A DNA stretch of 64,000 nucleotides, from contig OX442319.1 of assembly GCA_949358305.1 (NCBI GenBank), positions 7,130,001 to 7,194,000 on the forward strand, written 5' to 3'. This DNA comes from Strigamia acuminata (taxonomy: Eukaryota > Arthropoda > Chilopoda > Geophilomorpha > Linotaeniidae). Below, piece after piece: positions 1-22,900 of the stretch. The position numbers were made by a program, and so were the translations under genes. The notes beneath the pieces were generated by a model that was not told the origin of the DNA, made no database searches, and saw only the letters and a list, made by a program, of their open reading frames with translations. Within the stretch, counting starts at the first letter, position 1. The number at the start of each line of letters is the position of its first letter.

Positions 1-1244
1 TCTGAATATAAGTCTTCTTTGAGTTAGTTTGAGTGAATTTCTCAGTACTGGTTGATCTGACCGGATAAATCTGGGAAGAAAAGAGTTTTACATTAGTTAT
101 TTTTCCACTTAGAATTTATTTTCTATCTTGTTTACCTGTGTTATACATGTTTTGATGTTTCCAAGTGTTTTCCTGTTTCCAGTCCACTACTGTCAATGTA
201 GTGACAAGGTGTAGTGATGCTTTCAGACAGCAAAAGTGTACTAGAATGAGAAATGTATGTTATTATCAGTTTTAAGCTGTTTCAATCAATTTCTGTGAGT
301 TTTCTGTATATTACTAACCAATTAAGCGTTTTGTTAACTTAGATTGTGTGTAGCCTGTCTAGTGAGCTAATTTCAAGCCTTTTTATCCTCCTGCAAGTGA
401 TCTTTGTTTACATTGTCGGCCATTACTGTGGGAGTGGTCTACTTGTATCTGTAAAGAGAGGAGATAATGTTTAATCCCAAAGAGTTTTTGTGGGTTCTGA
501 TTAATAATTAATCACTTAATTATTATGCAATGTAAAAGTGTTAAGTTTGAGATTTATCTGTGTTGATTTATAACTTAACTTCTGCACTTACTGTAAAGTT
601 GCCAGCTCATTGGTCTAAAATGTCTTTACTTATTCTTTTCTCTATTTTATGAGTTGTTCAGTGTGTTTTAGAGTGAATAATTTAGTTCTCAATGAGCATT
701 GTGTTTAGAGACTGTTGTTAATGTATACTTTTGCATTTAATGCCAAATACTTGCTGTTCGGCTTATGTGTTTTCAACTATTAACTTCTACGGTAGTTTTG
801 TTGTGCCAGCAGTACTTATTTCTCTTTACAAGCACTTAGAGACCTCTGTAACTTTAAGTGCAAGTGTCCTTATACAATGTGGAGATAGTTACACTTGTTG
901 TTTCTTATTATTGTTAAAGTGTGACTTCTTTGTAAAATCCTCGTGATTCAATTGTAGTAGTGTTGTTAAGAATTTAGAGAATAAAATGGTTGCTTTTTAT
1001 TTCTCTCCAAGTCTCATTTCTCTATACAACCAGAAAGCAATGTGCAGTGAGTAGAAAAATCCTCCTTCCTCCTCCTTGAACTCACCAGTGGCAGATCATC
1101 ATGTGAAGCAGCAAGTTCAAGTCCAGTGTTTGCATTTCTTCAAGTCTTTGGCCAACTTCTGTTTATCAATTTGTGCCAAGCAGCAGTCAAGTATTGCCGC
1201 CCCTCCTTCTGGCCTGGTTGTCGCCTGCGACCTTGCCAGAAACA
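1..1244 (+). repeat. BEL-TK LTR, first copy (5' end outside window)
   Basis: Matches 5221-6464 without a difference that I can see, so about 113 bases at its left end are missing. It contains an AATAAAA polyadenylation-like signal near 980. It ends in CAGAAACA at 1244. The short ORF at 731-946 recurs unchanged in the second LTR and has no recognisable domain. It is probably chance coding inside the LTR. Confidence 0.9.
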
Positions 1245-2066
1245 ATTTGGTACCGTGAACCAAGGATTTCTTCCAGTTATCTCAGTGGACCTTCATGTGT
1301 GCTGCAAAATTCATCAGTGGGTTTTGTTCTCAAGCTGTGCAAAGCTTTTATGTGTAAAGTGCCATTGAAGCTGTGCCACTACAGTGAAGTGTATGCTCTC
1401 GTCCGCCTTTCACAGGCAAAAAAGTGGGTTTTTCAAGTTGGATTCTCAAATTGTCAAGATGGTCAAGAGGTTTTTCAACTTGGATCAAGCAAAGCTTCGA
1501 GAGTACGAGCGATCCTGCACGACAATCAAACCCAAACACAACGCAATGTACATCCTACAAGAAGATTTGAAGAAATAATTATTAAGAATTATTATTTAAA
1601 TAGAATAATATCCGAATTTGCTGCTGTAATTATTTCAAAAAGAGTTTTTGATTAGAAACTGGTGTAGTTGGGGGGAGAAGAAGTTTAAGTCTTAACAGTT
1701 TGAATAAATTCTCGATTCCAGTTTGTGGAATTTAGAGAATATCCAGTGAATTAGTGAATAATACCAAGCTTTAGTGTTGGTATCCCAATTTTAAAACGAG
1801 TATCTAGTCAGAAACTCAATTGTGAAAATAAGAGAATTGTCAATTACCTTTAATTATTGAATTTTGGGGGTTAATTTGCCAATCCTTTTAACATCTCGTG
1901 TGTTTCAATCCTGTTAACAGCTTGTGGATATCCATCCTGTTTTTGTGTGTTCAGTAAATCCTAGAGTGTAAAAGAATTAGACAAATTCTTGTTAACCAAT
2001 TTAGTCAGTTAAGTTGAGTTTGAATCCTGAACTGATCCTTGAATTCTTCATTTCTCGGTGAGGATT
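1245..2066 (+). other. BEL-TK copy 1 untranslated leader with candidate PBS
   Basis: About 820 bases between the LTR end and the ATG of the ORF. The sequence TGGTACCGTGAACCAAGG at 1248-1265 lies three bases past the LTR, where a tRNA primer-binding site is expected. I cannot name the matching tRNA. Overlapping short ORFs here have no recognisable domain. The first 718 bases of this leader, including the candidate PBS, are absent from copy 2. Confidence 0.6.
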
Positions 2067-5000
2067 ATGGCTACATTATCCGCTGCTGATCTCGAGGAAA
2101 AGGAGGTCATTTGGAAAGCAAAGGCTCAAGGAGCCGAGGATCTGCTGGGATCTTCAGTCAACATTCTAGACGGAGGAGAGCTGGAAGCCATGCAAATAAC
2201 GGTTGACCAGCAATTGAGTGATCTCGCCGACGAATTGAAAGCTCTTAAAGACGAGTCAAAAAGAGAGGACTATTTAGCAGGGCTTCAACGAATTGAAGAC
2301 ATTAGAACCAGAGTTAATTTATTGAAACAAAGAGCCAAAGTGTCTGGAAAAACGGCAGGGCAATTTGGTTCCCATCCGGGACAGAATTCCAGTTTAAACC
2401 AGACGTCCGCTTCATCTAGGAGAAACACGAGATTGCCGAAAACCGACATTGCCAAATTTAGTGGCGATGCAACTGAATATAGAGGCTTTGCGAATTTATT
2501 CGAATCAGCGGTTGATCCGAACACGGAGCTTTCGAACGTGGAAAAGCTTATATATCTGAGATCATGCTGCACTGGGGCTGCAGAATCCGCAATCAAGTCG
2601 TACCCAATAACTGATGACGCCTACCCATTAGCGAAAAATACATTGGAGAGTCTATTCGGATCTGAAAACACGCAGAGAAATGCGATTTCAAAGATGATTA
2701 GGGAGTCGAAACCCGTTTTCGATCTCTACCCAATCGAGCCACTTAAAGCTCTATTCACGTCATTGGCATCTGCTGTCCGGACCATGGCGCAACTGTCTGT
2801 GTCAGTTGACACTACTGGAACGTACCTTATTCCAGAACTACTTAGAAAATTTCCACCGGAGATCTCCCAACGTTTTTACCGAAAGCATCAAGGAAAAGTT
2901 GATGATGTTAACGTTTTTCTGGACTTCGTAGCAACCGAGATACAACTGGCTGAATTGTCGGAAGAAAGCGTTCTCCTTAAGCGCGCTCATCTGAAGAAGT
3001 CAGAAAAATTTGAGAAAACTTCAAAGGAAACAAGAGAAAGACCAACTGGAACAATGTCCTCATTCGTGACTTCTGAGAATGGAAAATTAAGCATGAATTC
3101 CAAGTCGAATCCAAACCGCAAACCCGCTTGCGCTTATTGTGATGGTGATCACGCACACGCAAACTGTGACGCCGATCTAGATGTACCGGCGAGGATCGAA
3201 ATAGTGAAGAAGAAACGACTTTGTTTCAACTGCTTGAGATATAACCACACAGCCAAAGAATGTACCGTGAAGTTTTGTTGTCGCTTGTGTGGTGGAAGAC
3301 ATCACACATCGATCTGCAACAAAAACAACAAAGAAAAAGCGATTACACCAAAAGAAGAAAACGTGTCTACTAATGTATCGCTTACCGAGTCGGTGGAGAT
3401 TCAACTGATGGTCTTCACTGCTCTTTTTGTGAAGAAAAATGGAGACATGTACCCCGTCCGCGGATTACTAGATCCAGGAAGCCATCGCTCCTACGTCACG
3501 AAGAGACTAGTAAATAAATTCCGGATGCAAAAGATCGAGACACTACACACGATGACACAGTGTCTGCTCAACAAAAAGCCAGTTCCGACGACACATGATG
3601 TCTTTAGATTCGAACTGCAATCAAGACACGGAACGGAAAAGACATCAATCCTTGCATTAGAAACCGACACGCTCCCGAAAGTCAAAGGGATAATTGGAGT
3701 AGAAGCCATAAAGCAAGTCCAATCACTCGGACTTGAGATGGCTGAGATACATCCGTCAGAATCGGAAGACATTGACGTCTTATTAGGAAGCAACGCATGG
3801 TGGAAGATTTGTCAAGGTGGAAGCCGAAAAATCAACGACGAGTTGGGATTAATGCAGACAATTTTTGGGTGGATTCTAAACGGTCGACTGAAACCAAACA
3901 ACCCGCTTGAAGAAAACATGGCAGCATGCAACATTTCTTGCATGGCGGTCGAGTCCAAAGAAGAAGTGATCTCAAATCAACCTGAAAATGACGAAAACAA
4001 AATAGTCCAATTAATTCCGAAATCACCGTCCGACATGAATGGCGAACCCGGTGTGAATAAACAGACAGACGTCACACCTTCTTGTTTTGCCGCGAGCCTC
4101 TCCAGTGGTCTGGAGAAAGAGGAACTGGACACCACCCTCCAAAAAACGAAAAAGTCGTTCAAGGATGGAGGATTGGCCAACAGAACTCCAAGCTCGGACA
4201 TGAAGCCGGAATTACGAGGGCGAAATCAGTCGGAGTCACTGAGAAAGAAAGCAAACCAAGTGCCCAGTTTACCCAAATTGTGTGCAATCTTGAGATGGAC
4301 CGGAGAATTGATTTTCAATTTCTGGAAAAAGAAAAATGTCTTATCGAACAATCAAAGAGGAATTCACCTTATCCTTGGTCCAATGTATGCCGGGAAAACG
4401 ACCAAGTTATTGAAGATCTTAGAAAAAGAAGAGAAGACGTCGTCCTTGCTCATTAAGCACTCCAATGACGAACGTTACAGTAAATCCGAAGTCGTGACCC
4501 ACGATGGTCATCGACGAGAAGCAATCGCGACCAGTAACCTAATCAATGCTGTGGAAAAAACGAAATTAATGAAGACAATCGGAATTGATGAAGGACAGTT
4601 TTTTCCCGACATTTTTACTTTTTCAAATGAAATGGCTGAGCAAAAGAAAAAGGTAATAGTCGCCGCATTAGACGTCGATTTCAAGAGGAAGCCATTTGAT
4701 CAGATATCCAAGTTAGTTCCACTAGCCGAGTCTGTTGTGAAACTACAAGCAAAATGTTATTTTTGCGGAGATAAAGCTGAATTTTCAAGACGAATTTCGC
4801 ACGAAACCAGAGTCAAGGTGATAGGAGGGATCGACAAATACAAACCAACCTGTCGAGTATGTTTCTCAAAGCCCATGGAGTCAGTAGAGACAAAAAGGAA
4901 AATCATCAACGGAATTATTCGACTTAGTTGTATGATTGTCAACCGAAGAATACCTCCGTGGATACCATATTTGATCCGTCAAAGAATCTTGCCATCCAGA

Positions 5001-5072
5001 GTGAAATACAAAAAGGTGAAAGAGGTCTCCCAAATATTATCATCAAAGACCAGAAGTAATCAAACTAAATGA
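2067..5072 (+). CDS. Gag-protease-thymidine kinase fusion polyprotein, BEL-TK copy 1
   Basis: Intact 1001-residue ORF. I take ATG 2067, because the upstream in-frame codon at 2058 is GTG. The N-terminal 350 residues are BEL/Pao Gag (DUF1759-like core opening RLPKTDIAKFSGD). Three zinc-knuckle motifs start near C355 (CAYC, CFNC, CRLC). A DUF1758-like aspartic protease has its active site at D469 (LLDPGSHRSY), followed by the conserved FGWILNG stretch that precedes RT in full BEL elements. Instead of RT comes a low-complexity linker and then a type II thymidine kinase: P-loop GPMYAGKT (771-778), THDG, catalytic motif DEGQFFPDI (D841, E842), a lasso region with LVPLAESVVKL, and zinc ligands C897/C900 and C929/C932. 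A basic tail of about 65 residues follows. Family knowledge: type II TKs phosphorylate thymidine to dTMP using ATP. The kinase looks complete; activity and a dNTP-supply role are inferred. Confidence 0.92.
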   Translation: MATLSAADLEEKEVIWKAKAQGAEDLLGSSVNILDGGELEAMQITVDQQLSDLADELKALKDESKREDYLAGLQRIEDIRTRVNLLKQRAKVSGKTAGQFGSHPGQNSSLNQTSASSRRNTRLPKTDIAKFSGDATEYRGFANLFESAVDPNTELSNVEKLIYLRSCCTGAAESAIKSYPITDDAYPLAKNTLESLFGSENTQRNAISKMIRESKPVFDLYPIEPLKALFTSLASAVRTMAQLSVSVDTTGTYLIPELLRKFPPEISQRFYRKHQGKVDDVNVFLDFVATEIQLAELSEESVLLKRAHLKKSEKFEKTSKETRERPTGTMSSFVTSENGKLSMNSKSNPNRKPACAYCDGDHAHANCDADLDVPARIEIVKKKRLCFNCLRYNHTAKECTVKFCCRLCGGRHHTSICNKNNKEKAITPKEENVSTNVSLTESVEIQLMVFTALFVKKNGDMYPVRGLLDPGSHRSYVTKRLVNKFRMQKIETLHTMTQCLLNKKPVPTTHDVFRFELQSRHGTEKTSILALETDTLPKVKGIIGVEAIKQVQSLGLEMAEIHPSESEDIDVLLGSNAWWKICQGGSRKINDELGLMQTIFGWILNGRLKPNNPLEENMAACNISCMAVESKEEVISNQPENDENKIVQLIPKSPSDMNGEPGVNKQTDVTPSCFAASLSSGLEKEELDTTLQKTKKSFKDGGLANRTPSSDMKPELRGRNQSESLRKKANQVPSLPKLCAILRWTGELIFNFWKKKNVLSNNQRGIHLILGPMYAGKTTKLLKILEKEEKTSSLLIKHSNDERYSKSEVVTHDGHRREAIATSNLINAVEKTKLMKTIGIDEGQFFPDIFTFSNEMAEQKKKVIVAALDVDFKRKPFDQISKLVPLAESVVKLQAKCYFCGDKAEFSRRISHETRVKVIGGIDKYKPTCRVCFSKPMESVETKRKIINGIIRLSCMIVNRRIPPWIPYLIRQRILPSRVKYKKVKEVSQILSSKTRSNQTK

Positions 5073-5107: not shown

Positions 5108-6464
5108 TGTTGCTAGCAACATAAAGGAAAGTTGCTAAACGTCTTAAAAATTAGTCATCTGGAATTATTAAAAAGGGTTTTTAATATTTATCTTAGATTG
5201 GGAATTTAATTAGGCACTTATCTGAATATAAGTCTTCTTTGAGTTAGTTTGAGTGAATTTCTCAGTACTGGTTGATCTGACCGGATAAATCTGGGAAGAA
5301 AAGAGTTTTACATTAGTTATTTTTCCACTTAGAATTTATTTTCTATCTTGTTTACCTGTGTTATACATGTTTTGATGTTTCCAAGTGTTTTCCTGTTTCC
5401 AGTCCACTACTGTCAATGTAGTGACAAGGTGTAGTGATGCTTTCAGACAGCAAAAGTGTACTAGAATGAGAAATGTATGTTATTATCAGTTTTAAGCTGT
5501 TTCAATCAATTTCTGTGAGTTTTCTGTATATTACTAACCAATTAAGCGTTTTGTTAACTTAGATTGTGTGTAGCCTGTCTAGTGAGCTAATTTCAAGCCT
5601 TTTTATCCTCCTGCAAGTGATCTTTGTTTACATTGTCGGCCATTACTGTGGGAGTGGTCTACTTGTATCTGTAAAGAGAGGAGATAATGTTTAATCCCAA
5701 AGAGTTTTTGTGGGTTCTGATTAATAATTAATCACTTAATTATTATGCAATGTAAAAGTGTTAAGTTTGAGATTTATCTGTGTTGATTTATAACTTAACT
5801 TCTGCACTTACTGTAAAGTTGCCAGCTCATTGGTCTAAAATGTCTTTACTTATTCTTTTCTCTATTTTATGAGTTGTTCAGTGTGTTTTAGAGTGAATAA
5901 TTTAGTTCTCAATGAGCATTGTGTTTAGAGACTGTTGTTAATGTATACTTTTGCATTTAATGCCAAATACTTGCTGTTCGGCTTATGTGTTTTCAACTAT
6001 TAACTTCTACGGTAGTTTTGTTGTGCCAGCAGTACTTATTTCTCTTTACAAGCACTTAGAGACCTCTGTAACTTTAAGTGCAAGTGTCCTTATACAATGT
6101 GGAGATAGTTACACTTGTTGTTTCTTATTATTGTTAAAGTGTGACTTCTTTGTAAAATCCTCGTGATTCAATTGTAGTAGTGTTGTTAAGAATTTAGAGA
6201 ATAAAATGGTTGCTTTTTATTTCTCTCCAAGTCTCATTTCTCTATACAACCAGAAAGCAATGTGCAGTGAGTAGAAAAATCCTCCTTCCTCCTCCTTGAA
6301 CTCACCAGTGGCAGATCATCATGTGAAGCAGCAAGTTCAAGTCCAGTGTTTGCATTTCTTCAAGTCTTTGGCCAACTTCTGTTTATCAATTTGTGCCAAG
6401 CAGCAGTCAAGTATTGCCGCCCCTCCTTCTGGCCTGGTTGTCGCCTGCGACCTTGCCAGAAACA
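5108..6464 (+). repeat. BEL-TK LTR, second (shared middle) copy, 1357 bp
   Basis: Complete LTR starting TGTTGCTAGCAACA and ending GCCAGAAACA. It serves as the 3' LTR of internal region 1 and the 5' LTR of internal region 2. An AATAAAA signal lies near 6201. It appears identical to the first LTR but about 2% different from the third. Confidence 0.93.
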
Positions 6465-6568
6465 AGAGTGTAAAAGAATTAGACAATTTCTTGTTAACCA
6501 ATTTAGTCAGTTAAGTTGAGTTTGAATCCTGAACTGATCTTTGAATTCTTCATTTCTCGGTGAGGATT
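6465..6568 (+). other. BEL-TK copy 2 shortened leader, candidate PBS lost
   Basis: The first base after the LTR corresponds to position 1963 of copy 1. Copy 2 therefore lacks 718 bases, and the missing block starts exactly at the LTR boundary. The sequence TGGTACCG that follows the LTR in copy 1 is not present. The deletion ends do not form a GT-AG intron. Confidence 0.85.
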
Positions 6569-9500
6569 ATGGCTACATTATCCGCTGCTGATCTCGAGGA
6601 AAAGGAGGTCATTTGGAAAGCAAAGGCTCAAGGAGCCGAGGATCTGCTGGGATCTTCAGTCAACATTCTAGACGGAGGAGAGCTGGAAGCCATGCAAATA
6701 ACGGTTGACCAGCAATTGAGTGATCTCGCAGACGAATTGAAAGCTCTTAAAGACGAGTCAAAAAGAGAGGACTATTTAGCGGGGCTTCAACGAATTGAAG
6801 ACATTAGAACCAGAGTAAATTTATTGAAGCAAAGAGCAAAAGTGTCTGGAAAAATGGCAGGGCAATTTGGTTCCCATCCGGGACAGAATTCCAGTTTAAA
6901 CCAGACGTCCGCTTCATCTAGGAGAAACACGAGATTGCCGAAAACCGACATTGCCAAATTTAGTGGCGATGCAACTGAATATAGAGGTTTTGCGAATTTA
7001 TTCGAATCAGCAGTTGATCAGAACACGGAGCTTTCGAACGTGGAAAAGCTTATATATCTGAGGTCATGCTGCACTGGGGCTGCAGAATCCGCAATCAAGT
7101 CGTACCCAATAACTGATGACGCCTACCCATTAGCGAAAAATACATTGGAGAGTCTATTCGGTTCTGAAAACACGCAGAGAAATGCTATTTCAAAGATGAT
7201 TAGGGAGTCGAAACCCGTTTTCGATCTCTACCCAATCGAGCCACTCAAAGCTCTATTCACGTCATTGGCATCTGCTGTCCGGACCATGGCGCAACTGTCT
7301 GTGTCAGTTGACACTACTGGAACGTACCTTATTCCAGAACTACTTAGAAAATTTCCACCGGAGATCTCCCAACGTTTTTACCGAAAGCATCAAGGAAAAG
7401 TTGATGATGTTAACGTTTTTCTGGACTTCGTAGCAACCGAGATACAACTGGCTGAATTGTCGGAAGAAAGCGTTCTCCTTAAGCGCGCTCATCTGAAGAA
7501 GTCAGAAAAATTTGAGAAAACTTCAAAGGAAACAAGAGAAAGACCAACTGGAACCATGTCCTCATTCGTGACTTCCGAGAATGGAAAATTGAGTATGAAT
7601 TCCAAGTCAAATCCAAACCGCAAACCCGCCTGCGCTTATTGTGATGGTGATCACGCACACGCAAATTGTGATGCGGATCTCGATGTACCAGCGAGGATCG
7701 AAATAGTGAAGAAGAAACGACTTTGTTTCAACTGCTTGAGATATAACCACACAGCCAAAGAATGTACCGTGAAGTTTTGTTGTCGCTTGTGTGGTGGAAG
7801 ACATCACACATCGATCTGCAACAAAAACAACAAAGAAAAAGCGATTACACCAAAAGAAGAAAACGTGTCTACTAATGTATCGCTTACCGAGTCGGTGGAG
7901 ATTCAACTGATGGTCTTCACTGCTCTTTTTGTGAAGAAAAATGGAGACATGTACCCCGTCCGCGGATTATTAGATCCAGGAAGCCATCGCTCCTACGTCA
8001 CGAAGAGACTAGTAAATAAATTCCGGATGCAAAAGATCGAGACACTACACACGATGACACAGTGTCTGCTCAACAAAAAGCCAGTTCCGACGACACATGA
8101 TGTCTTTAGATTCGAACTACAATCAAGACACGGAACAAAAAAGACATCAATCCTTGCATTAGAAACCGACACACTCCCGAAAGTCAAAGGGATAATTGGA
8201 GCAGAAGCCATAAAGCAAGTCCAATCACTCGGACTTGAGATGGCTGAGATACATCCGTCAGAATCGGAAGACATTGACGTCTTATTAGGAAGCAACGCAT
8301 GGTGGAAGATTTGTCAAGGTGGAAGCCGAAAAATCAACGACGAGTTGGGATTAATGGAGACAATTTTTGGGTGGATTCTAAACGGTCGACTGAAACCAAA
8401 CAACCCGCTTGAAGAAAACATGGCAGCGTGCAACATTTCTTGCATGGCGGTCGAGTCCAAAGAAGAAGTGATCTCAAATCAACCTGAAAATGACGAAAAC
8501 AAAATAGTCCAATTAATTCCGAAATCACTGCCCAACATGAATGGCGAACCCGGTGTGAATAAACAGACAGACGTCACACCTTCTTGTTTTGCCGCGAGCC
8601 TCTCCAGTGGTCTGGAGAAAGAGGAACTGGACACCACCCTCCAAAAAACGAAAAAGTCGTTTAAGGATGGAGGATTGGTCAACAGAACTCCAAGCTCGGA
8701 CATGAAGCCGGAATTACGAGGGCGAAATCAGTTAGAGTCAGGGAGAAAGAACGTCGAATTACTTACAAACCAAGTGCCCAGTTTACCCAAATTGTGTGCA
8801 ATCGTGAGATGGAGTGGAAACGTGATTCTGAATTTCTGGAAAAAGAAAATTGATTTGTCAACCAATCAAAAGGGAATTCATCTCATCATTGGTCCAATGT
8901 ATGCGGGAAAAACGACCAAGTTATTGAAGCTTTTAGAAAAGGAAGAGAAGACGTCGTCCCTGCTAATTAAACACTCCAATGACGATCGTTACAGTAAAAC
9001 CGAAGTCGTGACCCACGACGGTCATCGACGAGAAGCAATTGCTACCAGTAGCCTAACCAATGCTGTGGAAAAAACGAAATTAGTGAAGACAATCAGAATT
9101 GACGAAGGACAGTTTTTTCCCGACATTTTTACTTTTTCAAATGAAATGGCTGAGCAAAAGAAAAAGGTAATAGTCGCCGCATTAGACGTCGACTTCAAGA
9201 GGAAGCCATTTGATCAGATATCCGAGTTAGTTCCACTAGCCGAGTCTGTTGTGAAACTACAAGCAAAATGTTATTTTTGCGGAGATAAAGCTGAATTTTC
9301 AAGACGAATTTCGCACGAAACCAGAGTCAAGATGATAGGAGGGATCGACAAATACAAACCAACCTGTCGAGTATGTTTCTCAAAGCCCATGAAGTCTCTA
9401 GAGACGAAAAGGAAAATCATCAACGGAATTATTCGACTTAGTTGTATGATTGTCAACCGAAGAATACCTCCGTGGATACCAAATTTGATCCGTCAAAGAA

Positions 9501-9586
9501 TCATGCCACCCAGAGTGAAATACAAAAAGGTGAAAGAAGTCTCCCAAATATTATCATCAAAGACCAGAAGTAATCAAACTAAATGA
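6569..9586 (+). CDS. Gag-protease-thymidine kinase fusion polyprotein, BEL-TK copy 2
   Basis: Intact 1005-residue ORF collinear with copy 1. I take ATG 6569, since the codon at 6560 is GTG. All key motifs are retained: the zinc knuckles, LLDPGSHRSY, GPMYAGKT, THDG, DEGQFFPDI, and two CxxC zinc pairs. It differs by a four-residue insertion just before the kinase linker and by scattered substitutions. Hand comparison of the kinase region gives about 15 synonymous and 13 amino-acid-changing codons, none in a catalytic motif. In the Gag-protease part synonymous changes outnumber replacements by more than two to one. Both patterns fit purifying selection during the element's history. Copy 2 lacks the leader with the candidate PBS, so it may be unable to prime its own reverse transcription although its protein is intact. 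Confidence 0.92.
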   Translation: MATLSAADLEEKEVIWKAKAQGAEDLLGSSVNILDGGELEAMQITVDQQLSDLADELKALKDESKREDYLAGLQRIEDIRTRVNLLKQRAKVSGKMAGQFGSHPGQNSSLNQTSASSRRNTRLPKTDIAKFSGDATEYRGFANLFESAVDQNTELSNVEKLIYLRSCCTGAAESAIKSYPITDDAYPLAKNTLESLFGSENTQRNAISKMIRESKPVFDLYPIEPLKALFTSLASAVRTMAQLSVSVDTTGTYLIPELLRKFPPEISQRFYRKHQGKVDDVNVFLDFVATEIQLAELSEESVLLKRAHLKKSEKFEKTSKETRERPTGTMSSFVTSENGKLSMNSKSNPNRKPACAYCDGDHAHANCDADLDVPARIEIVKKKRLCFNCLRYNHTAKECTVKFCCRLCGGRHHTSICNKNNKEKAITPKEENVSTNVSLTESVEIQLMVFTALFVKKNGDMYPVRGLLDPGSHRSYVTKRLVNKFRMQKIETLHTMTQCLLNKKPVPTTHDVFRFELQSRHGTKKTSILALETDTLPKVKGIIGAEAIKQVQSLGLEMAEIHPSESEDIDVLLGSNAWWKICQGGSRKINDELGLMETIFGWILNGRLKPNNPLEENMAACNISCMAVESKEEVISNQPENDENKIVQLIPKSLPNMNGEPGVNKQTDVTPSCFAASLSSGLEKEELDTTLQKTKKSFKDGGLVNRTPSSDMKPELRGRNQLESGRKNVELLTNQVPSLPKLCAIVRWSGNVILNFWKKKIDLSTNQKGIHLIIGPMYAGKTTKLLKLLEKEEKTSSLLIKHSNDDRYSKTEVVTHDGHRREAIATSSLTNAVEKTKLVKTIRIDEGQFFPDIFTFSNEMAEQKKKVIVAALDVDFKRKPFDQISELVPLAESVVKLQAKCYFCGDKAEFSRRISHETRVKMIGGIDKYKPTCRVCFSKPMKSLETKRKIINGIIRLSCMIVNRRIPPWIPNLIRQRIMPPRVKYKKVKEVSQILSSKTRSNQTK

Positions 9587-9621: not shown

Positions 9622-10979
9622 TGTTGCTAGCAACATAAAGGAAAGCTGCTAAACGTCTTAAAAATTAGTCATCTGGAATTATTAAAAAGGGTTTTTAATA
9701 TTTATCTTAGATTGGGAATTTAATTAGACACTTATTTGAATATAAGTCTTCTTTGAGTTAGTTTGAGTGAATTTCTCAGTACTGGTTGATCTGACCGGAT
9801 AAATCTGGGAAGAAAAGAGTTCTTACATTAGTTATTTATCCACTTAGAATTTATTTTCTATCTTGTTTACCTGTGTTATGCATGTTTTGATGTTTCCAAG
9901 TGTTTTCCTGTTTCCAGTCCACTACTGTCAATGTAGTGACAAGGTGTAATGATGCTCTCAGACAGCAAAAGGGTACTAGAATGAGAAATGTATGTTATTA
10001 TCAGTTTTAAGCTGTTTCAATCAATTTCTGTTTGTTTTCTGTATATTACTAACCAATTAAGCGTTTTGTTAACTTAGATTGTGTGTAGCCTGTCTAGTGA
10101 GCTAATTTCAAGCCTTTCTATCTTCCTGCAAGTGATCTCTGTTTACATTGTCGGCCATTACTGTGGGAGTGGTCTACTTGTATCTGTAAAGAGAGGAGAA
10201 AATGTTTAATCCCAAAGAGTTTTTGTGGGTTCTGATTAATAATTAATCAGTTAATTATTATGCAATGTAAAAGTGTTAAGTTTAAGATTTATCTGTGTTG
10301 ATTTATAACTTAACTTCTGCACTTACTGTAAAGTTGCCAGCTCATTGGTCTAAAATGTCTTTACTTATTCTTTTCTCTATTTTATGAGTTGTTCAGTGTG
10401 TTTTAGAGTGAATAATTTAGTTCTCAACGAGCATTGTGGTTAGAGACTGTTGTTAATGTATACTTTTGCATTTAATGTCAAATACTTGCTGTTAGGCTTA
10501 TGTGTTTTCAACTATTAACTTCTACGGTAGTTTTGTTGTGCCAGCAGTACTTATTTCTCTTTACAAGCACTTAGAGACCTCTGTAACTTTAAGTGCAAGT
10601 GTCCTTATACAATGTGGAGATAGTTACACTTGTTGTTTCTTATTATTGTTAAAGTGTGACTTCTTTGTAATATCCTCGTGATTCAATTGTAGTAGTCTTG
10701 TTAAGAATTTAGAGAATAAAATGGTTGCTTTTTATTTCTCTCCAAGTCTCATTTCTCTATACAACCAGAAAGCAATGTGCAGTGAGTAGAAAAATCCTCC
10801 TTCCTCCTCCTTGAACTCACCAGTGGCAGATCAACAGGTGAAGCAGCAAGTTCAATTCCAGTGTTTGCATTTCTTCAAGTCTTTGGCCAACTTCTGTGTA
10901 TCAATTTTAGCCAAGCAGCAGTCAAGTATTGCCGCCCCTCCTTCTGGCCTGGTTGTCGCCTGCGACCTTGCCAGAAACA
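9622..10979 (+). repeat. BEL-TK LTR, third copy, 1358 bp
   Basis: Same termini as LTR 2 but with roughly 25-30 scattered substitutions by eye. Its last base abuts the satellite array directly. It is the oldest-looking LTR of the three. Confidence 0.92.
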
Positions 10980-13900
10980 GTCTTGTGGTGTTTGTGCTAA
11001 GTCAACTGTGATGAGATCAAAAGTCTATTCTCCCAAATCATCGGTTGAATGTTTCTAAAACTTACATTGGAGCCTTCTACTAAGGTTTAAACACTATTTC
11101 TGAACATTCAGAGACATTGGTCTTGTGGTGTTTGTGCTAAGTCAACTGTGATGAGATCAAAAGTCTATTCTCCCAAATCATCGGTTAAATGTTATAAAAC
11201 TTACATTGGAGCCTTCTACTAAGGTTTAAACACTATTTCTGAACATTCAGAGACATTGGTCTTGTGGTGTTTGTGCTAAGTCAACTGTGATGAGATCAAA
11301 AGTCTATTCTCCCAAATCATCGGTTGGATGTTTCTAAAACTTACATTGGAGCCTTCTACTAAGGTTTAAACACTATTTCTGAACATTCAGAGACATTGGT
11401 CTTGTGGTGTTTGTGCTAAGTCAACTGTGATGAGATCAAAAGTCTATTCTCCCAAATCATTGGTTGGATGTTTCTAAAACTTACATTGGAGCCTTCTACT
11501 AAGGTTTAAACACTATTTCTGAACATTCAGAGACATTGGTCTTGTGGTGTTTGTGCTAAGTCAACTGTGATGAGATCAAAAGTCTATTCTCCCAAATCAT
11601 CGGTTAAATGTTTCTAAAACTTACATTGGAGCCTTCTACTAAGGTTTAAACACTATTTCTGAACATTCAGAGACATTGGTCTTGTGGTGTTTGTGCTAAG
11701 TCAACTGTGATGAGATCAAAAGTCTATTCTCCCAAATCATCGGTTGGATGTTTCTAAAACTTACATTGGAGCCTTCTACTAAGGTTTAAACACTATTTCT
11801 GAACATTCAGAGACATTGGTCTTGTGGTGTTTGTGCTAAGTCAACTGTGATGAGATCAAAAGTCTATTCTCCCAAATCATTGGTTGGATGTTTCTAAAAC
11901 TTACATTGGAGCCTTCTACTAAGGTTTAAACACTATTTCTGAACATTCAGAGACATTGGTCTTGTGGTGTTTGTGCTAAGTCAACTGTGATGAGATCAAA
12001 AGTCTATTCTCCCAAATCATCGGTTAAATGTTTCTAAAACTTACATTGGAGCCTTCTACTAAGGTTTAAACACTATTTCTGAACATTCAGAGACATTGGT
12101 CTTGTGGTGTTTGTGCTAAGTCAACTGTGATGAGATCAAAAGTCTATTCTCCCAAATCATCGGTTGGATATTTCTAAAACTTACATTGGAGCCTTCTACT
12201 AAGGTTTAAACACTATTTCTGAACATTCAGAGACATAGGACTTGTGGTGTTTGTGCTAAGTCAACTGCGATGTGAAATGAGCTCAAAATTTTTTTTTCAA
12301 AATTTATTGCTTGGGTGTTGCTAAAACTTAGATTGAAGGTTTCTACTAAGGTTTAAACACTATTTCTGAACATTCAGAGACATTGGTCTTGTGGTGTTTG
12401 TGCTAAGTCAACTGCGATGTGAAATGAGCTCAAAATTTTTTTCTTCAAAATTTAATGCTTGGGTGTTGCTAAAACTTATATTGAAGGCTTCTACTAAGGT
12501 TTAAACACTATTTCTGAACATACAGAGACATTGGACTTGTGGTGTTTGTGCTAAGTAACTGTGATGAGATCAAAAGTCTATTCTCCCAAATCATTGCTTG
12601 GATGTTGCTAAAACTTACATTGAAGGCTTCTACTAAGGTTTAAACACTATTTCTGAACATTCAGAGACATTGGTCTTGTGGTGTTTGTGCTAAGTCAACT
12701 GTGATGAGATCAAAAGTCTATTCTCCCAAATCATCGGTTGGATGTTTCTAAAACTTACATTGGAGCCTTCTACTAAGGTTTAAACACTATTTCTGAACAT
12801 TCAGAGACATTGGTCTTATGGTGTTTGTGCTAAGTCAACTATGATGAGATCAAAAGTCTATTCTCCCAAATCATCGGTTGAATGTTTCTAAAACTTACAT
12901 TGGAGCCTTCTACTAAGGTTTAAACACTATTTCTGAACATTCAGAGACATTGGTCTTGTGGTGTTTGTGCTAAGTCAACTGTGATGAGATCAAAAGTCTA
13001 TTCTCCCAAATCATCGGTTGGATGTTTCTAAAACTTACATTGGAGCCTTCTACTAAGGTTTAAACACTATTTCTGAACATTCAGAGACATTGGACTTGTG
13101 GTGTTTGTGCTAAGTCAACGGCGATGTGAAATGAGCTCAAAATTTTTTTTTCAAAATTTATTGCTTAGGTGTTGCTAAAACTTATATTGAAGGCTTCTAC
13201 TAAGGTTTAAACACTATTTCTGAACATTCAGAGACATTGGTCTTGTGGTGTTTGTGCTAAGTCAACTGTGATGAGATCAAAAGTCTATTCTCCCAAATCA
13301 TCGGTTAAATGTTTCTAAAACTTACATTGGAGCCTTCTACTAAGGTTTAAACACTATTTCTGAACATTCAGAGACATTGGTCTTGTGGTGTTTGTGCTAA
13401 GTCAACTGTGATGAGATCAAAAGTCTATTCTCCCAAATCATCGGTTGGATGTTTCTAAAACTTACATTGGAGCCTTCTACTAAGGTTTAAACACTATTTC
13501 TGAACATTCAGAGACATTGGTCTTATGGTGTTTGTGCTAAGTCAACTATGATGAGATCAAAAGTCTATTCTCCCAAATCATCGGTTGAATGTTTCTAAAA
13601 CTTACATTGGAGCCTTCTACTAAGGTTTAAACACTATTTCTGAACATTCAGAGACATTGGTCTTGTGGTGTTTGTGCTAAGTCAACTGTGATGAGATCAA
13701 AAGTCTATTCTCCCAAATCATCGGTTGGATGTTTCTAAAACTTACATTGGAGCCTTCTACTAAGGTTTAAACACTATTTCTGAACATTCAGAGACATTGG
13801 ACTTGTGGTGTTTGTGCTAAGTCAACGGCGATGTGAAATGAGCTCAAAATTTTTTTTTCAAAATTTATTGCTTAGGTGTTGCTAAAACTTATATTGAAGG

Positions 13901-16900
13901 CTTCTACTAAGGTTTAAACACTATTTCTGAACATTCAGAGACATTGGTCTTGTGGTGTTTGTGCTAAGTCAACTGTGATGAGATCAAAAGTCTATTCTCC
14001 CAAATCATCGGTTAAATGTTTCTAAAACTTACATTGGAGCCTTCTACTAAGGTTTAAACACTATTTCTGAACATTCAGAGACATTGGTCTTGTGGTGTTT
14101 GTGCTAAGTCAACTGTGATGAGATCAAAAGTCTATTCTCCCAAATCATCGGTTGGATGTTTCTAAAACTTACATTGGAGCCTTCTACTAAGGTTTAAACA
14201 CTATTTCTGAACATTCAGAGACATTGGTCTTGTGGTGTTTGTGCTAAGTCAACTGTGATGAGATCAAAAGTCTATTCTCCCAAATCATTGGTTGGATGTT
14301 TCTAAAACTTACATTGGAGCTTTCTACTAAGGTTTAAACACTATTTCTGAACATTCAGAGACATTGGTCTTGTGGTGTTTGTGCTAAGTCAACTGTGATG
14401 AGATCAAAAGTCTATTCTCCCAAATCATCGGTTAAATGTTTCTAAAACTTACATTGGAGCCTTCTACTAAGGTTTAAACACTATTTCTGAACATTCAGAG
14501 ACATTGGTCTTGTGGTGTTTGTGCTAAGTCAACTGTGATGAGATCAAAAGTCTATTCTCCCAAATCATCGGTTGGATGTTTCTAAAACTTACATTGGAGC
14601 CTTCTACTAAGGTTTAAACACTATTTCTGAACATTCAGAGACATTGGACTTGTGGTGTTTGTGCTAAGTCAACTGCGATGTGAAATGAGCTCAAAATTTT
14701 TTTTTCAAAATTTATTGCTTGGGTGTTGCTAAAACTTAGATTGAAGGCTTCTACTAAGGTTTAAACACTATTTCTGAACATTCAGAGACATTGGTCTTGT
14801 GGTGTTTGTGCTAAGTCAACTGCGATGTGAAATGAGCTCAAAATTTTTTTCTTCAAAATTTAATGCTTGGGTGTTGCTAAAACTTATATTGAAGGCTTCT
14901 ACTAAGGTTTAAACACTATTTCTGAACATACAGAGACATTGGACTTGTGGTGTTTGTGCTAAGTAACTGTGATGAGATCAAAAGTCTATTCTCCCAAATC
15001 ATTGCTTGGATGTTGCTAAAACTTACATTGAAGGCTTCTACTAAGGTTTAAACACTATTTCTGAACATTCAGAGACATTGGTCTTGTGGTGTTTGTGCTA
15101 AGTCAACTGTGATGAGATCAAAAGTCTATTCTCCCAAATCATCGGTTGGATGTTTCTAAAACTTACATTGGAGCCTTCTACTAAGGTTTAAACACTATTT
15201 CTGAACATTCAGAGACATTGGTCTTATGGTGTTTGTGCTAAGTCAACTATGATGAGATCAAAAGTCTATTCTCCCAAATCATCGGTTGAATGTTTCTAAA
15301 ACTTACATTGGAGCCTTCTACTAAGGTTTAAACACTATTTCTGAACATTCAGAGACATTGGTTTTGTGGTGTTTGTGCTAAGTCAACTGTGATTAGATCA
15401 AAAGTCTATTCTCCCAAATCATCGGTTGGATGTTTCTAAAACTTACATTGGAGCCTTCTACTAAGGTTTAAACACTATTTCTGAACATTCAGAGACATTG
15501 GACTTGTGGTGTTTGTGCTAAGTCAACGGCGATGTGAAATGAGCTCAAAATTTTTTTTTCAAAATTTATTGCTTAGGTGTTGCTAAAACTTATATTGAAG
15601 GCTTCTACTAAGGTTTAAACACTATTTCTGAACATTCAGAGACATTGGTCTTGTGGTGTTTGTGCTAAGTCAACTGCGATGTGAAATGAGCTCAAAATTT
15701 TTTTTTCAAAAATTAATGCTTGGGTGTTGCTAAAACTTATATTGAAGGCTTCTACTAAGGTTTAAACACTATTTCTGAACATTCAGAGACATTAGACTTG
15801 TGGTGTTTGTGCTAAGTCAACTGTGATGAGATCAAAAGTTTATTCTCCCAAATCATTCGTTGGATGTTTCTAAAACTTACATTGGAGCCTTCTACTAAGG
15901 TTTAAACACTATTTCTGAACATTCAGAGACATTGGTCTTGTGGTGTTTGTGCTAAGTCAACTGTGATGAGATCAAAAGTCTATTCTCCCAAATCATCGGT
16001 TAAATGTTATAAAACTTACATTGGAGCCTTCTACTAAGGTTTAAACACTATTTCTGAACATTCAGAGACATTGGTCTTGTGGTGTTTGTGCTAAGTCAAC
16101 TGTGATGAGATCAAAAGTCTATTCTCCCAAATCATCGGTTAAATGTTTCTAAAACTTACATTGGAGCCTTCTACTAAGGTTTAAACACTATTTCTGAACA
16201 TTCAGAGACATTGGACTTGTGGTGTTTGTGCTAAGTAACTGTGATGAGATCAAAAGTCTATTCTCCCAAATCATTGCTTGGATGTTGCTAAAACTTACAT
16301 TGAAGGCTTCTACTAAGGTTTAAACACTATTTCTGAACATTCAGAGACATTGGTCTTGTGGTGTTTGTGCTAAGTCAACTGTGATGAGATCAAAGTCTAT
16401 TCTCCCAAATCATCGGTTGGATGTTTCTAAAACTTACATTGGAGCCTTCTACTAAGGTTTAAACACTATTTCTGAACATTCAGAGACATTGGTCTTATGG
16501 TGTTTGTGCTAAGTCAACTATGATGAGATCAAAAGTCTATTCTCCCAAATCATCGGTTGAATGTTTCTAAAACTTACATTGGAGCCTTCTACTAAGGTTT
16601 AAACACTATTTCTGAACATTCAGAGACATTGGACTTGTGGTGTTTGTGCTAAGTCAACTGCGATGTAAAATGAGCTCAAAATTTTTTTTTCAAAATTTAT
16701 TGCTTAGGTGTTGCTAAAACTTATATTGAAGGCTTCTACTAAGGTTTAAACACTATTTCTGAACATTCAGAGACATTGGTCTTGTGGTGTTTGTGCTAAG
16801 TCAACTGCGATGTAAAATGAGCTCAAAATTTTTTTTTCAAAATTTAATGCTTGGGTGTTGCTAAAACTTATATTGAAGGCTTCTACTAAGGTTTAAACAC

Positions 16901-19900
16901 TATTTCTGAACATTCAGAGACATTGGACTTGTGGTGTTTGTGCTAAGTCAACTGTGATGAGATCAAAAGTCTATTCTCCCAAATCATTGGTTGGATGTTT
17001 CTAAAACTTACATTGGAGCCTTCTACTAAGGTTTAAACACTATTTCTGAACATTCAGAGACATTGGTCTTGTGGTGTTTGTGCTAAGTCAACTGTGATGA
17101 GATCAAAAGTCTATTCTCCCAAATCATTGGTTGGATGTTTCTAAAACTTACATTGGAGCCTTCTACTAAGGTTTAAACACTATTTCTGAACATTCAGAGA
17201 CATTGGTCTTGTGGTGTTTGTGCTAAGTCAACTGTGATGAGATCAAAAGTCTATTCTCCCAAATCATCGGTTGAATGTTTCTAAAACTTACATTGGAGCC
17301 TTCTACTAAGGTTTAAACACTATTTCTGAACATTCAGAGACATTGGTCTTGTGGTGTTTGTGCTAAGTCAACTGTGATGAGATCAAAAGTCTATTCTCCC
17401 AAATCATTGGTTAAATGTTTCTAAAACTTACATTGGAGCCTTCTACTAAGGTTTAAACACTATTTCTGAACATTCAGAGACATTGGTCTTGTGGTGTTTG
17501 TGCTAAGTCAACTGTGATGAGATCAAAAGTCTATTCTCCCAAATCATTGGTTGGATGTTTCTAAAACTTACATTGGAGCCTTCTACTAAGGTTTAAACAC
17601 TATTTCTGAACATTCAGAGACATTGGTCTTGTGGTGTTTGTGCTAAGTCAACTGTGATGAGATCAAAAGTCTATTCTCCCAAATCATCGGTTGAATGTTT
17701 CTAAAACTTACATTGGAGCCTTCTACTAAGGTTTAAACACTATTTCTGAACATTCAGAGACATTGGTCTTGTGGTGTTTGTGCTAAGTCAACTGTGATGA
17801 GATCAAAAGTCTATTCTCCCAAATCATCGGTTAAATGTTATAAAACTTACATTGGAGCCTTCTACTAAGGTTTAAACACTATTTCTGAACATTCAGAGAC
17901 ATTGGTCTTGTGGTGTTTGTGCTAAGTCAACTGTGATGAGATCAAAAGTCTATTCTCCCAAATCATCGGTTGGATGTTTCTAAAACTTACATTGGAGCCT
18001 TCTACTAAGGTTTAAACACTATTTCTGAACATTCAGAGACATTGGTCTTGTGGTGTTTGTGCTAAGTAAACTGTGATGAGATCAAAAGTCTATTCTCCCA
18101 AATCATTGGTTGGATGTTTCTAAAACTTACATTGGAGCCTTCTACTAAGGTTTAAACACTATTTCTGAACATTCAGAGACATTGGTCTTGTGGTGTTTGT
18201 GCTAAGTCAACTGTGATGAGATCAAAAGTCTATTCTCCCAAATCATCGGTTGGATGTTTCTAAAACTTACATTGGAGCCTTCTACTAAGGTTTAAACACT
18301 ATTTCTGAACATTCAGAGACATTGGTCTTGTGGTGTTTGTGCTAAGTCAACTGTGATGAGATCAAAAGTCTATTCTCCCAAATCATTGGTTGGATGTTTC
18401 TAAAACTTACATTGGAGCCTTCTACTAAGGTTTAAACACTATTTCTGAACATTCAGAGACATTGGTCTTGTGGTGTTTGTGCTAAGTCAACTGTGATGAG
18501 ATCAAAAGTCTATTCTCCCAAATCATCGGTTAAATGTTTCTAAAACTTACATTGGAGCCTTCTACTAAGGTTTAAACACTATTTCTGAACATTCAGAGAC
18601 ATTGGTCTTGTGGTGTTTGTGCTAAGTCAACTGTGATGAGATCAAAAGTCTATTCTCCCAAATCATCGGTTGGATGTTTCTAAAACTTACATTGGAGCCT
18701 TCTACTAAGGTTTAAACACTATTTCTGAACATTCAGAGACATTGGTCTTGTGGTGTTTGTGCTAAGTCAACTGTGATGAGATCAAAAGTCTATTCTCCCA
18801 AATCATTGGTTGGATGTTTCTAAAACTTACATTGGAGCCTTCTACTAAGGTTTAAACACTATTTCTGAACATTCAGAGACATTGGTCTTGTGGTGTTTGT
18901 GCTAAGTCAACTGTGATGAGATCAAAAGTCTATTCTCCCAAATCATCGGTTAAATGTTTCTAAAACTTACATTGGAGCCTTCTACTAAGGTTTAAACACT
19001 ATTTCTGAACATTCAGAGACATTGGTCTTGTGGTGTTTGTGCTAAGTCAACTGTGATGAGATCAAAAGTCTATTCTCCCAAATCATCGGTTGGATGTTTC
19101 TAAAACTTACATTGGAGCCTTCTACTAAGGTTTAAACACTATTTCTGAACATTCAGAGACATTGGACTTGTGGTGTTTGTGCTAAGTCAACTGCGATGTG
19201 AAATGAGATCAAAATTTTTTTTTCAAAATTTATTGCTTGGGTGTTGCTAAAACTTAGATTGAAGGCTTCTACTAAGGTTTAAACACTATTTCTGAACATT
19301 CAGAGACATTGGTCTTGTGGTGTTTGTGCTAAGTCAACTGCGATGTGAAATGAGCTCAAAATTTTTTTCTTCAAAATTTAATGCTTGGGTGTTGCTAAAA
19401 CTTATATTGAAGGCTTCTACTAAGGTTTAAACACTATTTCTGAACATACAGAGACATTGGACTTGTGGTGTTTGTGCTAAGTAACTGTGATGAGATCAAA
19501 AGTCTATTCTCCCAAATCATTGCTTGGATGTTGCTAAAACTTACATTGAAGGCTTCTACTAAGGTTTAAACACTATTTCTGAACATTCAGAGACATTGGT
19601 CTTGTGGTGTTTGTGCTAAGTCAACTGTGATGAGATCAAAAGTCTATTCTCCCAAATTATCGGTTGGATGTTTCTAAAACTTACATTGGAGCCTTCTACT
19701 AAGGTTTAAACACTATTTCTGAACATTCAGAGACATTGGTCTTATGGTGTTTGTGCTAAGTCAACTATGATGAGATCAAAAGTCTATTCTCCCAAATCAT
19801 CGGTTGAATGTTTCTAAAACTTACATTGGAGCCTTCTACTAAGGTTTAAACACTATTTCTGAACATTCAGAGACATTGGTCTTGTGGTGTTTGTGCTAAG

Positions 19901-22900
19901 TCAACTGTGATGAGATCAAAAGTCTATTCTCCCAAATTATCGGTTGGATGTTTCTAAAACTTACATTGGAGCCTTCTACTAAGGTTTAAACACTATTTCT
20001 GAACATTCAGAGACATTGGTCTTATGGTGTTTGTGCTAAGTCAACTATGATGAGATCAAAAGTCTATTCTCCCAAATCATCGGTTGAATGTTTCTAAAAC
20101 TTACATTGGAGCCTTCTACTAAGGTTTAAACACTATTTCTGAACATTCAGAGACATTGGTCTTGTGGTGTTTGTGCTAAGTCAACTGTGATGAGATCAAA
20201 AGTCTATTCTCCCAAATCATCGGTTGGATGTTTCTAAAACTTACATTGGAGCCTTCTACTAAGGTTTAAACACTATTTCTGAACATTCAGAGACATTGGA
20301 CTTGTGGTGTTTGTGCTAAGTCAACTGCGATGTGAAATGAGCTCAAAATTTTTTTTTCAAAATTTATTGCTTAGGTGTTGCTAAAACTTATATTGAAGGC
20401 TTCTACTAAGGTTTAAACACTATTTCTGAACATTCAGAGACATTGGTCTTGTGGTGTTTGTGCTAAGTCAACTGCGATGTGAAATAAGCTCAAAATTTTT
20501 TTTTCAAAATTTAATGCTTGGGTGTTGCTAAAACTTATATTGAAGGCTTCTACTAAGGTTTAAACACTATTTCTGAACATTCAGAGACATTAGACTTGTG
20601 GTGTTTGTGCTAAGTCAACTGTGATGAGATCAAAAGTTTATTCTCCCAAATCATTCGTTGGATGTTTCTAAAACTTACATTGGAGCCTTCTACTAAGGTT
20701 TAAACACTATTTCTGAACATTCAGAGACATTGGTCTTATGGTGTTTGTGCTAAGTCAACTGTGATGAGATCAAAAGTCTATTCTCCCAAATCATCAGTTG
20801 GATGTTTCTAAAACTTACATTGGAGCCTTTTACTAAGGTTTAAACACTATTTCTGAACATTCAGAGACATTGGTCTTGTGGTGTTTGTGCTAAGTCAACT
20901 GTGATGAGATCAAAAGTCTATTCTCCCAAATCATCGGTTAAATGTTATAAAACTTACATTGGAGCCTTCTACTAAGGTTTAAACACTATTTCTGAACATT
21001 CAGAGACATTGGTCTTGTGGTGTTTGTGCTAAGTCAACTGTGATGAGATCAAAAGTCTATTCTTCCAAATCATCGGTTAAATGTTTCTAAAACTTACATT
21101 GGAGCCTTCTACTAAGGTTTAAACACTATTTCTGAACATTCAGAGACATTGGACTTGTGGTGTTTGTGCTAAGTAACTGTGATGAGATCAAAAGTCTATT
21201 CTCCCAAATCATTGCTTGGATGTTGCTAAAACTTACATTGAAGGCTTCTACTAAGGTTTAAACACTATTTCTGAACATTCAGAGACATTGGTCTTGTGGT
21301 GTTTGTGCTAAGTCAACTGTGATGAGATCAAAGTCTATTCTCCCAAATCATCGGTTGGATGTTTCTAAAACTTACATTGGAGCCTTCTACTAAGGTTTAA
21401 ACACTATTTCTGAACATTCAGAGACATTGGTCTTGTGGTGTTTGTGCTAAGTCAACTGTGATGAGATCAAAAGTCTATTCTCCCAAATCATCGGTTAAAT
21501 GTTATAAAACTTACATTGGAGCCTTCTACTAAGGTTTAAACACTATTTCTGAACATTCAGAGACATTGGTCTTGTGGTGTTTGTGCTAAGTCAACTGTGA
21601 TGAGATCAAAAGTCTATTCTCCCAAATCATCGGTTGGATGTTTCTAAAACTTACATTGGAGCCTTCTACTAAGGTTTAAACACTATTTCTGAACATTCAG
21701 AGACATTGGTCTTGTGGTGTTTGTGCTAAGTAAACTGTGATGAGATCAAAAGTCTATTCTCCCAAATCATTGGTTGGATGTTTCTAAAACTTACATTGGA
21801 GCCTTCTACTAAGGTTTAAACACTATTTCTGAACATTCAGAGACATTGGTCTTGTGGTGTTTGTGCTAAGTCAACTGTGATGAGATCAAAAGTCTATTCT
21901 CCCAAATCATCGGTTGGATGTTTCTAAAACTTACATTGGAGCCTTCTACTAAGGTTTAAACACTATTTCTGAACATTCAGAGACATTGGTCTTGTGGTGT
22001 TTGTGCTAAGTCAACTGTGATGAGATCAAAAGTCTATTCTCCCAAATCATTGGTTGGATGTTTCTAAAACTTACATTGGAGCCTTCTACTAAGGTTTAAA
22101 CACTATTTCTGAACATTCAGAGACATTGGTCTTGTGGTGTTTGTGCTAAGTCAACTGTGATGAGATCAAAAGTCTATTCTCCCAAATCATCGGTTAAATG
22201 TTTCTAAAACTTACATTGGAGCCTTCTACTAAGGTTTAAACACTATTTCTGAACATTCAGAGACATTGGTCTTGTGGTGTTTGTGCTAAGTCAACTGTGA
22301 TGAGATCAAAAGTCTATTCTCCCAAATCATCGGTTGGATGTTTCTAAAACTTACATTGGAGCCTTCTACTAAGGTTTAAACACTATTTCTGAACATTCAG
22401 AGACATTGGTCTTGTGGTGTTTGTGCTAAGTCAACTGTGATGAGATCAAAAGTCTATTCTCCCAAATCATTGGTTGGATGTTTCTAAAACTTACATTGGA
22501 GCCTTCTACTAAGGTTTAAACACTATTTCTGAACATTCAGAGACATTGGTCTTGTGGTGTTTGTGCTAAGTCAACTGTGATGAGATCAAAAGTCTATTCT
22601 CCCAAATCATCGGTTAAATGTTTCTAAAACTTACATTGGAGCCTTCTACTAAGGTTTAAACACTATTTCTGAACATTCAGAGACATTGGTCTTGTGGTGT
22701 TTGTGCTAAGTCAACTGTGATGAGATCAAAAGTCTATTCTCCCAAATCATCGGTTGGATGTTTCTAAAACTTACATTGGAGCCTTCTACTAAGGTTTAAA
22801 CACTATTTCTGAACATTCAGAGACATTGGACTTGTGGTGTTTGTGCTAAGTCAACTGCGATGTGAAATGAGATCAAAATTTTTTTTTCAAAATTTATTGC

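Follow-up and report, generated by a model that had tools for sequence, protein, structure and literature searches.

The window analysed here is a stretch of 64,000 nucleotides from the centipede Strigamia acuminata (contig OX442319.1 of assembly GCA_949358305.1, positions 7,130,001 to 7,194,000), and at its left end lie two tandem copies of a long terminal repeat (LTR) element in which a thymidine kinase (TK) occupies the place of pol in a Bel/Pao retrotransposon. COX1 of this genome (contig C157), translated by the invertebrate mitochondrial code, comes nearest to that of the geophilomorph centipede Mecistocephalus marmoratus (86%), with 82-84% for other myriapods and horseshoe crabs, which makes a centipede likely from sequence as well. 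The open reading frame (ORF) of copy 1 runs unbroken on the forward strand from 2058 to 5072, 1,004 codons with a likely ATG at 2067, and encodes in order Gag-protease, a linker of about 130 residues, the kinase and a tail of about 65 residues (Table 1). Pfam places the Bel/Pao Gag family DUF1759 at residues 134-275 and the TK domain at residues 769-936 (E=1.3e-53; score 181.9 bits, cut-off 20.6), the latter overlapped by two more P-loop families that both fall under their cut-offs; its scan of the ORF reports no reverse transcriptase (RT), RNase H or integrase. Residues 16-635 resemble a pol-bearing Bel/Pao ORF of the same window, 35210-39142, with 36% identity over 645 columns, and the similarity ends before pol. 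Remnants of pol sought in the linker and tail were not found (best E 0.46). An initial annotation, made from the letters of this DNA, had claimed a full kinase in frame behind Gag-protease at pol's position and an ORF free of RT, RNase H and integrase, and both claims hold; the span it gave, 4260-5072, does contain the kinase and also takes in the end of the linker and the tail.

Table 1. Features of the Gag-protease-TK element and its surroundings in the window
Feature	Position	Strand	Basis
5' LTR of copy 1, minus its first 113 bp (left of the window)	1..1244	+	100% identical to 5221-6464
Primer-binding-site core TTTGGTACCGTGA, immediately 3' of the LTR	1246..1258	+	sequence; genome-wide count
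Copy 1, single ORF, Gag-protease-TK, A1 subfamily	2067..5072	+	ORF reading, Pfam
Gag-protease part, residues 16-635	2103..3962	+	alignment to pol-bearing Bel/Pao ORF
Protease-like motif LLDPG	3465..3479	+	pol-bearing relatives in the genome have MLDPG
Linker, less constrained than the kinase	3963..4361	+	substitution counts; pol match absent
Type II thymidine kinase domain	4362..4865	+	Pfam, human TK1 sequence match, fold model
C-terminal tail, alike in A1 and A2	4866..5072	+	sequence comparison
LTR common to copies 1 and 2	5108..6464	+	sequence comparison
Copy 2 ORF, Gag-protease-TK	6569..9586	+	ORF reading, Pfam
TK domain of copy 2	8876..9379	+	Pfam, residues 773-940 of ORF 6560-9586
3' LTR of copy 2, satellite beyond its end	9622..10979	+	sequence comparison
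140-bp satellite array, 160 copies, 22.6 kb, adjoining the elements	10980..33609	.	repeat analysis
Bel/Pao ORF with pol (Gag, RT and Pao peptidase), related to the candidate helper	35210..39142	+	Gag about 50% identical

The LTRs, 1,357 bp long, flank the ORF on both sides, and their start, TGTTGCTAGCAACA, was read at locus L041, left of the window. Paired LTRs, a primer-binding site, target-site duplications and the Gag itself are all of Bel/Pao kind; because pol is lacking, the element would be classed as Bel/Pao only as a non-autonomous derivative. The protease of copy 1 is recognised from the alignment and the LLDPG motif, and is absent from the Pfam output for the ORF. While the usual protease motif is D-S/T-G, the pol-bearing ORF at 35210-39142 carries DPG just as the TK-bearing elements do (also at locus L044), and since pol-bearing elements here share it, the sequences indicate that DPG does not mark a degeneration peculiar to the TK family.

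In two alignments, one of 9 TKs and one of 32, there is no variation in the Walker A core GPMxxGK, the DEGQFF motif and four cysteines in two CxxC pairs, motifs that had already been listed in the initial annotation. By sequence the kinase region matches structures of human TK1, and among fold matches to an AlphaFold model of it, with a mean predicted local distance difference test score (pLDDT) of 86, human TK1 ranks first. With fold, Walker A, catalytic glutamate motif and zinc cysteines all those of type II enzymes, we predict a TK1-type kinase. Cellular TK1 (1xbt, 1w4r) and vaccinia TK (2j87) share the fold, the Walker A core, DEGQFF and the zinc cysteines with it, but the element's kinase differs from both in lying C-terminal to Gag-protease within a mobile element and in having its own tail. 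It also differs from human TK1 in subfamily A1 by a serine at the position of Thr163, the threonine being kept in subfamilies A2 and A3; the mutant structure 2wvj likewise has serine there, a change which according to the title of that entry shifts specificity toward a nucleoside analogue.

Substitution counts by the Nei-Gojobori method, which rest on a small number of copies chosen by hand and assume that sites are independent, indicate that the kinase is under purifying selection. Between window copies 1 and 2 the TK has a non-synonymous divergence (dN) of 0.028 and a synonymous divergence (dS) of 0.12 (Fisher p 6e-5), and between A2 and A3 the values are 0.148 and 1.01 (p 3e-23); A1 and A2 have reached synonymous saturation, in Gag-protease as well as in TK. 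Moreover, in each of the three comparisons the linker shows more non-synonymous change than the TK (TK 0.027, linker 0.056, p=0.03; 0.135 and 0.209, p=0.003; 0.286 and 0.459, p=4e-7), and for this reason the kinase seems to be kept for its own sake, not merely as part of an open frame. As a separate observation, window 2067-5072 and L043:723-3749 have no synonymous difference in linker and TK and a dS of 0.063 in Gag-protease, a contrast that looks like the pattern of recombination or template switching.

The element is abundant in the genome. A TK profile search of all 237.5 Mb (157 contigs) gave 205 candidates, of which 150 were scored and all 150 matched. Sorted by frame length, score and place, with the DNA of 12 Gag-fused loci read at least partly, they comprise 92 Gag-fused copies (type A) and 13, 40 and 5 copies of types B, C and D, and 84 of the 92 have an unbroken frame of 995-1013 residues. 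Approached from the other side, a query of Gag-protease without the kinase gave 1,307 candidates, and the 64 of them that were scored match at 97-100% identity (51) or at 56% (13); a TK match stands at the expected place in 61 of these, the other three have frames of 799, 880 and 954 residues, and none of the 64 has a frame of pol length. Thus the further Gag-protease-TK copies that the initial annotation proposed to look for do exist. The window's subfamily, A1, is 52% identical to A2 over the whole ORF, and A3 (locus L002) is nearer to A2. The two outcomes named beforehand as fatal to the fusion, an assembly error and absence of the TK from other copies, did not occur, as copy number and diverged subfamilies attest. 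A spurious union of a host TK with the element, through faulty assembly or mapping, is already refuted: no point in its favour was found, and against it stand 92 copies on many contigs, the diverged subfamilies and frames that are open through the junction.

TK has been amplified repeatedly in this genome. Three further kinds of intronless TK repeat occur at loci L009-L028 (contigs C1, C3, C4, C5, C8, C9, C12, C13, C17, C22 and C130); among the 150 scored TKs, the 13 type B copies have frames of 216-269 residues, plus longer frames across N, the 40 of type C have 190 residues and the 5 of type D 221-239. Copies of each type are embedded in long shared flanks, and no second coding domain scored over the cut-off in the eight ORFs of these repeats that were scanned. 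In the B-type copy L019:4200-5003 a glutamate replaces a Walker A glycine (GPMFAEK), so that this member of the amplified set, at least, is probably inactive.

All 13 TK sequences of this genome that were placed in trees form one group in both of two trees (98/96, and 91/92 with viral rows), the second of which left out two of ten viral rows, for a stop in the reading, and four long-branch eukaryotic rows of the first. The Gag-fused TKs are a clade within the genome's TK clade, with long branches, and in the first tree the TK of Oikopleura, itself a long branch, joined the base of the group. The 80 loci on viral contigs that were kept, out of 154 relatives, are 28-37% identical, whereas TKs of other eukaryotes, most of them animals, reach 40-52%, and on this comparison a viral origin was rejected as the less likely; the five intronless copies of type D are closest to a spider TK1 (51-52%). 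Capture from the host lineage is likelier than capture from a virus. The mRNA origin that the initial annotation had put forward is consistent with the absence of introns, which fits such an origin and does not prove it. No normal intron-bearing host TK1 was seen among the 150 scored of 205 TK candidates.

How does an element without integrase come to be inserted at many sites? Ten forward-strand A1 copies were checked at both ends by eye from their flanks, and nine have target-site duplications of 4-5 bp (AGTC, GCGC, CCAA, TCAC, CCTT, CTCC, CAAA, CCGT and the 5-bp GCATC). Three of the ten insertions lie in the 140-bp satellite that forms the window's array and the rest in other sequence. Because nine of ten insertions carry such duplications and the element codes for no integrase, it is moved by an integrase that it does not encode. 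Its copies are strongly clustered: on large contigs, 72 of 74 lie within six blocks totalling 10.4 Mb, a share that is partly circular since the blocks were delimited from the TK copies themselves, and 18 more lie on small contigs. Copies of the Gag-TK element have their nearest neighbour at a median of 41 kb, against 2.0 Mb for TK type C and 360 kb for Bel/Pao pol, where the best-scoring 150 of 1,068 candidates hardly include the block families and represent the spread of other Bel/Pao families only. The blocks are satellite-rich and perhaps centromeric.

In the window, copy 2 follows copy 1 in tandem with 97% identical DNA, but the segment that holds leader and primer-binding site, positions 1245-1962 in copy 1, is missing from it. 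We considered whether leader-less copies form a subtype of their own and rejected this, as six copies of 1013 residues begin where the leader is expected. An element just left of the window (L041:1380-1400) is without an ORF, and its junction and that of copy 2 both fall near 1963-1969. The same block also holds large Copia-like ORFs, recognised by eye from their translations, at 45718-50139, 52355-54484 and 56133-61004, with a partial one at 41200-44136.

Since the TK stands in place of pol, the element must depend on a helper, as the initial annotation had supposed. A candidate emerges from the primer-binding-site core TTTGGTACCGTGA, which occurs 195 times genome-wide against 3 for a reversed control. 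At 28 of the 100 sites that were listed a TK copy follows; the other 72 have none behind them, and 49 of the 72 lie within the blocks on C1, C5 and C8. Beside one of the latter sites is a Bel/Pao Gag 90-96% identical to the Gag adjoining an A2 copy at L044. Used as a query, this Gag gave 1,119 candidates, of which 115 were scored: 62 reach an identity of 84% or more, and 42 of the 62 belong to frames no shorter than 1,760 residues (about 1,770). Of the 52 among the 62 that are on large contigs, 45 lie in the TK-element blocks. A Gag of this family lies 647-783 bp downstream at 21 of the 72 listed non-TK sites. In one copy, C8:7223260, a stretch translates into reverse transcriptase sequence that includes a YMDD box. 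The 13-nucleotide core is common to A1, A2 and this family, while the flanking bases differ. The 3' LTR junctions read CTTTCTTTTCGCCGGCAATCTA then TGTTGCTAGCAACA in A1, CTTTTCTTTTCGGCGGCAATCTC then TGTTTCGAGCAACA in A2 and CTTCTTTTTCGGCTGGCAGCGA then TGTTGCGAGCAAGA in C8:7223260, where the LTR start was placed by analogy; the LTR 3' ends of the three differ or are ambiguous. On this evidence the pol-bearing Bel/Pao family of the TK blocks is the likely helper candidate.

We consider it probable that these copies represent a non-autonomous Bel/Pao lineage that has its own Gag and perhaps protease, in which a TK1-type kinase has replaced pol, and which would draw RT and integrase from a helper in trans while the kinase aids the supply of thymidine triphosphate (dTTP). 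The product of a TK is thymidine monophosphate (dTMP), and host kinases are still needed to reach dTTP. Judging from anatomy and location, the element's own Gag would package its RNA, and Gag-Pol of the helper would co-assemble with it in mixed particles, supplying RT and integrase. Fusion to Gag may keep the kinase within the particle, close to it or at the place where it assembles, and there dTMP, passed on to dTTP by host kinases, might favour reverse transcription in settings of low host TK1, such as cells outside S phase. The TK element would then be a contributing partner rather than a pure parasite. More tentatively, we can imagine a division of labour within the same satellite, perhaps centromeric, blocks, in which the TK element gives Gag and a nucleotide-salvage kinase, an autonomous Bel/Pao element gives RT and integrase, and local thymidine phosphorylation supports reverse transcription; we regard this as a possible arrangement, not as the expected one.

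Several observations weigh against this explanation as a whole. The Gags of the helper family and of window ORF 35210-39142 are only 36-42% identical to those of the TK elements, and co-assembly is uncertain for that reason. The LTR 5' ends TGTTGCTAGCAACA, TGTTTCGAGCAACA and TGTTGCGAGCAAGA are alike and not identical, 51 of the 72 listed non-TK primer sites are assigned to no element, and one of the ten insertions examined, C13:9021541, has no target-site duplication. The tandem copies, with a period of about 5.2 kb, mean that recombination also multiplies the element. Finally, the kinase has some unusual residues: a near-invariant glycine is valine in A1, the adjacent near-invariant aspartate is asparagine in A2 and A3, and copy 2 of the window has arginine at another near-invariant glycine.

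Such residues next to conserved motifs, present in every subfamily and also in copy 2, would suit a TK that now serves Gag as a module for binding or structure, in nucleotide sensing or oligomerisation, with kinase activity no longer selected; TK1-type enzymes form tetramers, which could aid assembly. We think this unlikely, given that the aligned copies do not vary in Walker A core, DEGQFF or zinc cysteines and that the TK is under purifying selection. Still less likely, in our judgement, is a passenger retrogene in a Gag-only parasite, with the youth of the copies as the reason for their open frames. Most copies are indeed near-identical, the LTRs of copies 1 and 2 are 100% identical, and intronless TKs of the same clade are scattered over other repeats; against a passenger, the fusion is present across subfamilies whose synonymous sites have reached saturation, and the linker has changed more than the TK. 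Tandem arrangement, concentration in blocks and the many near-identical copies would also be expected if the repeats were immobile parts of satellite arrays spread by unequal exchange, perhaps as TK genes serving the host, but duplications flank nine of ten copies at different sites, seven of them outside the 140-bp satellite, and we hold this account to be the most improbable of the three.

The initial annotation knew of no LTR retrotransposon with a TK, and none turned up, judged by title and start of abstract, among the papers listed by the literature searches made, nor among the 12 proteins matched by the whole ORF in a search limited to 7,999 candidates. We know of no other retroelement with a dTMP-making salvage enzyme, here in place of pol. 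Retroviruses and some LTR elements guard against deoxyuridine triphosphate by means of a dUTPase. Plant TR-GAG elements are likewise non-autonomous LTR elements with Gag and without pol, but they are not known to have an enzyme fused to Gag.

Among elements with a dUTPase, Juno, Vesta and TelKA of bdelloid rotifers also place an enzyme of nucleotide metabolism after the protease in the polyprotein, as far as the part of PMC5408684 used here goes, with the difference that their dUTPase is added to a complete pol whereas here the TK replaces it; the words thymidine and kinase are absent from the main text of that paper. Teratorn, a piggyBac-herpesvirus fusion, is another mobile element discussed for its nucleotide-metabolism genes: in the passages of PMC5601938 on this point, TK and dUTPase are absent and, its authors suggest, might be dispensable after endogenization, whereas here a TK is kept in a fully endogenous element. 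In einkorn wheat, RLG_Cereba and RLG_Quinta are an autonomous and a non-autonomous Gypsy element in CENH3 chromatin, of which, according to the portion of PMC11302176 drawn on here, the non-autonomous partner codes for Gag plus an extra domain, and both share a primer-binding site and a chromosomal niche. The differences are that the wheat pair is Gypsy and from a plant, and Quinta's extra domain has no known function in that portion of PMC11302176, while here the elements are Bel/Pao, the host an animal and the domain a recognisable TK. Of the features by which PMC11302176, in the same portion, defines partners, our elements show the same primer-binding site and a pol-coding partner (from frame length, and RT in one copy); the LTR 5' ends are similar and the 3' ends differ or are ambiguous, where that definition calls for identical termini, besides a conserved second half of the LTR. 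The nearest known arrangement is thus the wheat Cereba/Quinta pair, and the captured nucleotide-salvage enzyme is the new part.

The sequences point to an LTR element that codes for Gag, lacks autonomy and carries an enzyme hitherto unseen in elements of that kind. If our reading is true, thymidine supply would limit a retrotransposon strongly enough for long-term selection, and the element and its helper would be an animal counterpart of the Cereba/Quinta partnership of wheat. The intact and distinctive TK lets biochemistry ask what a non-autonomous element brings to mixed particles.

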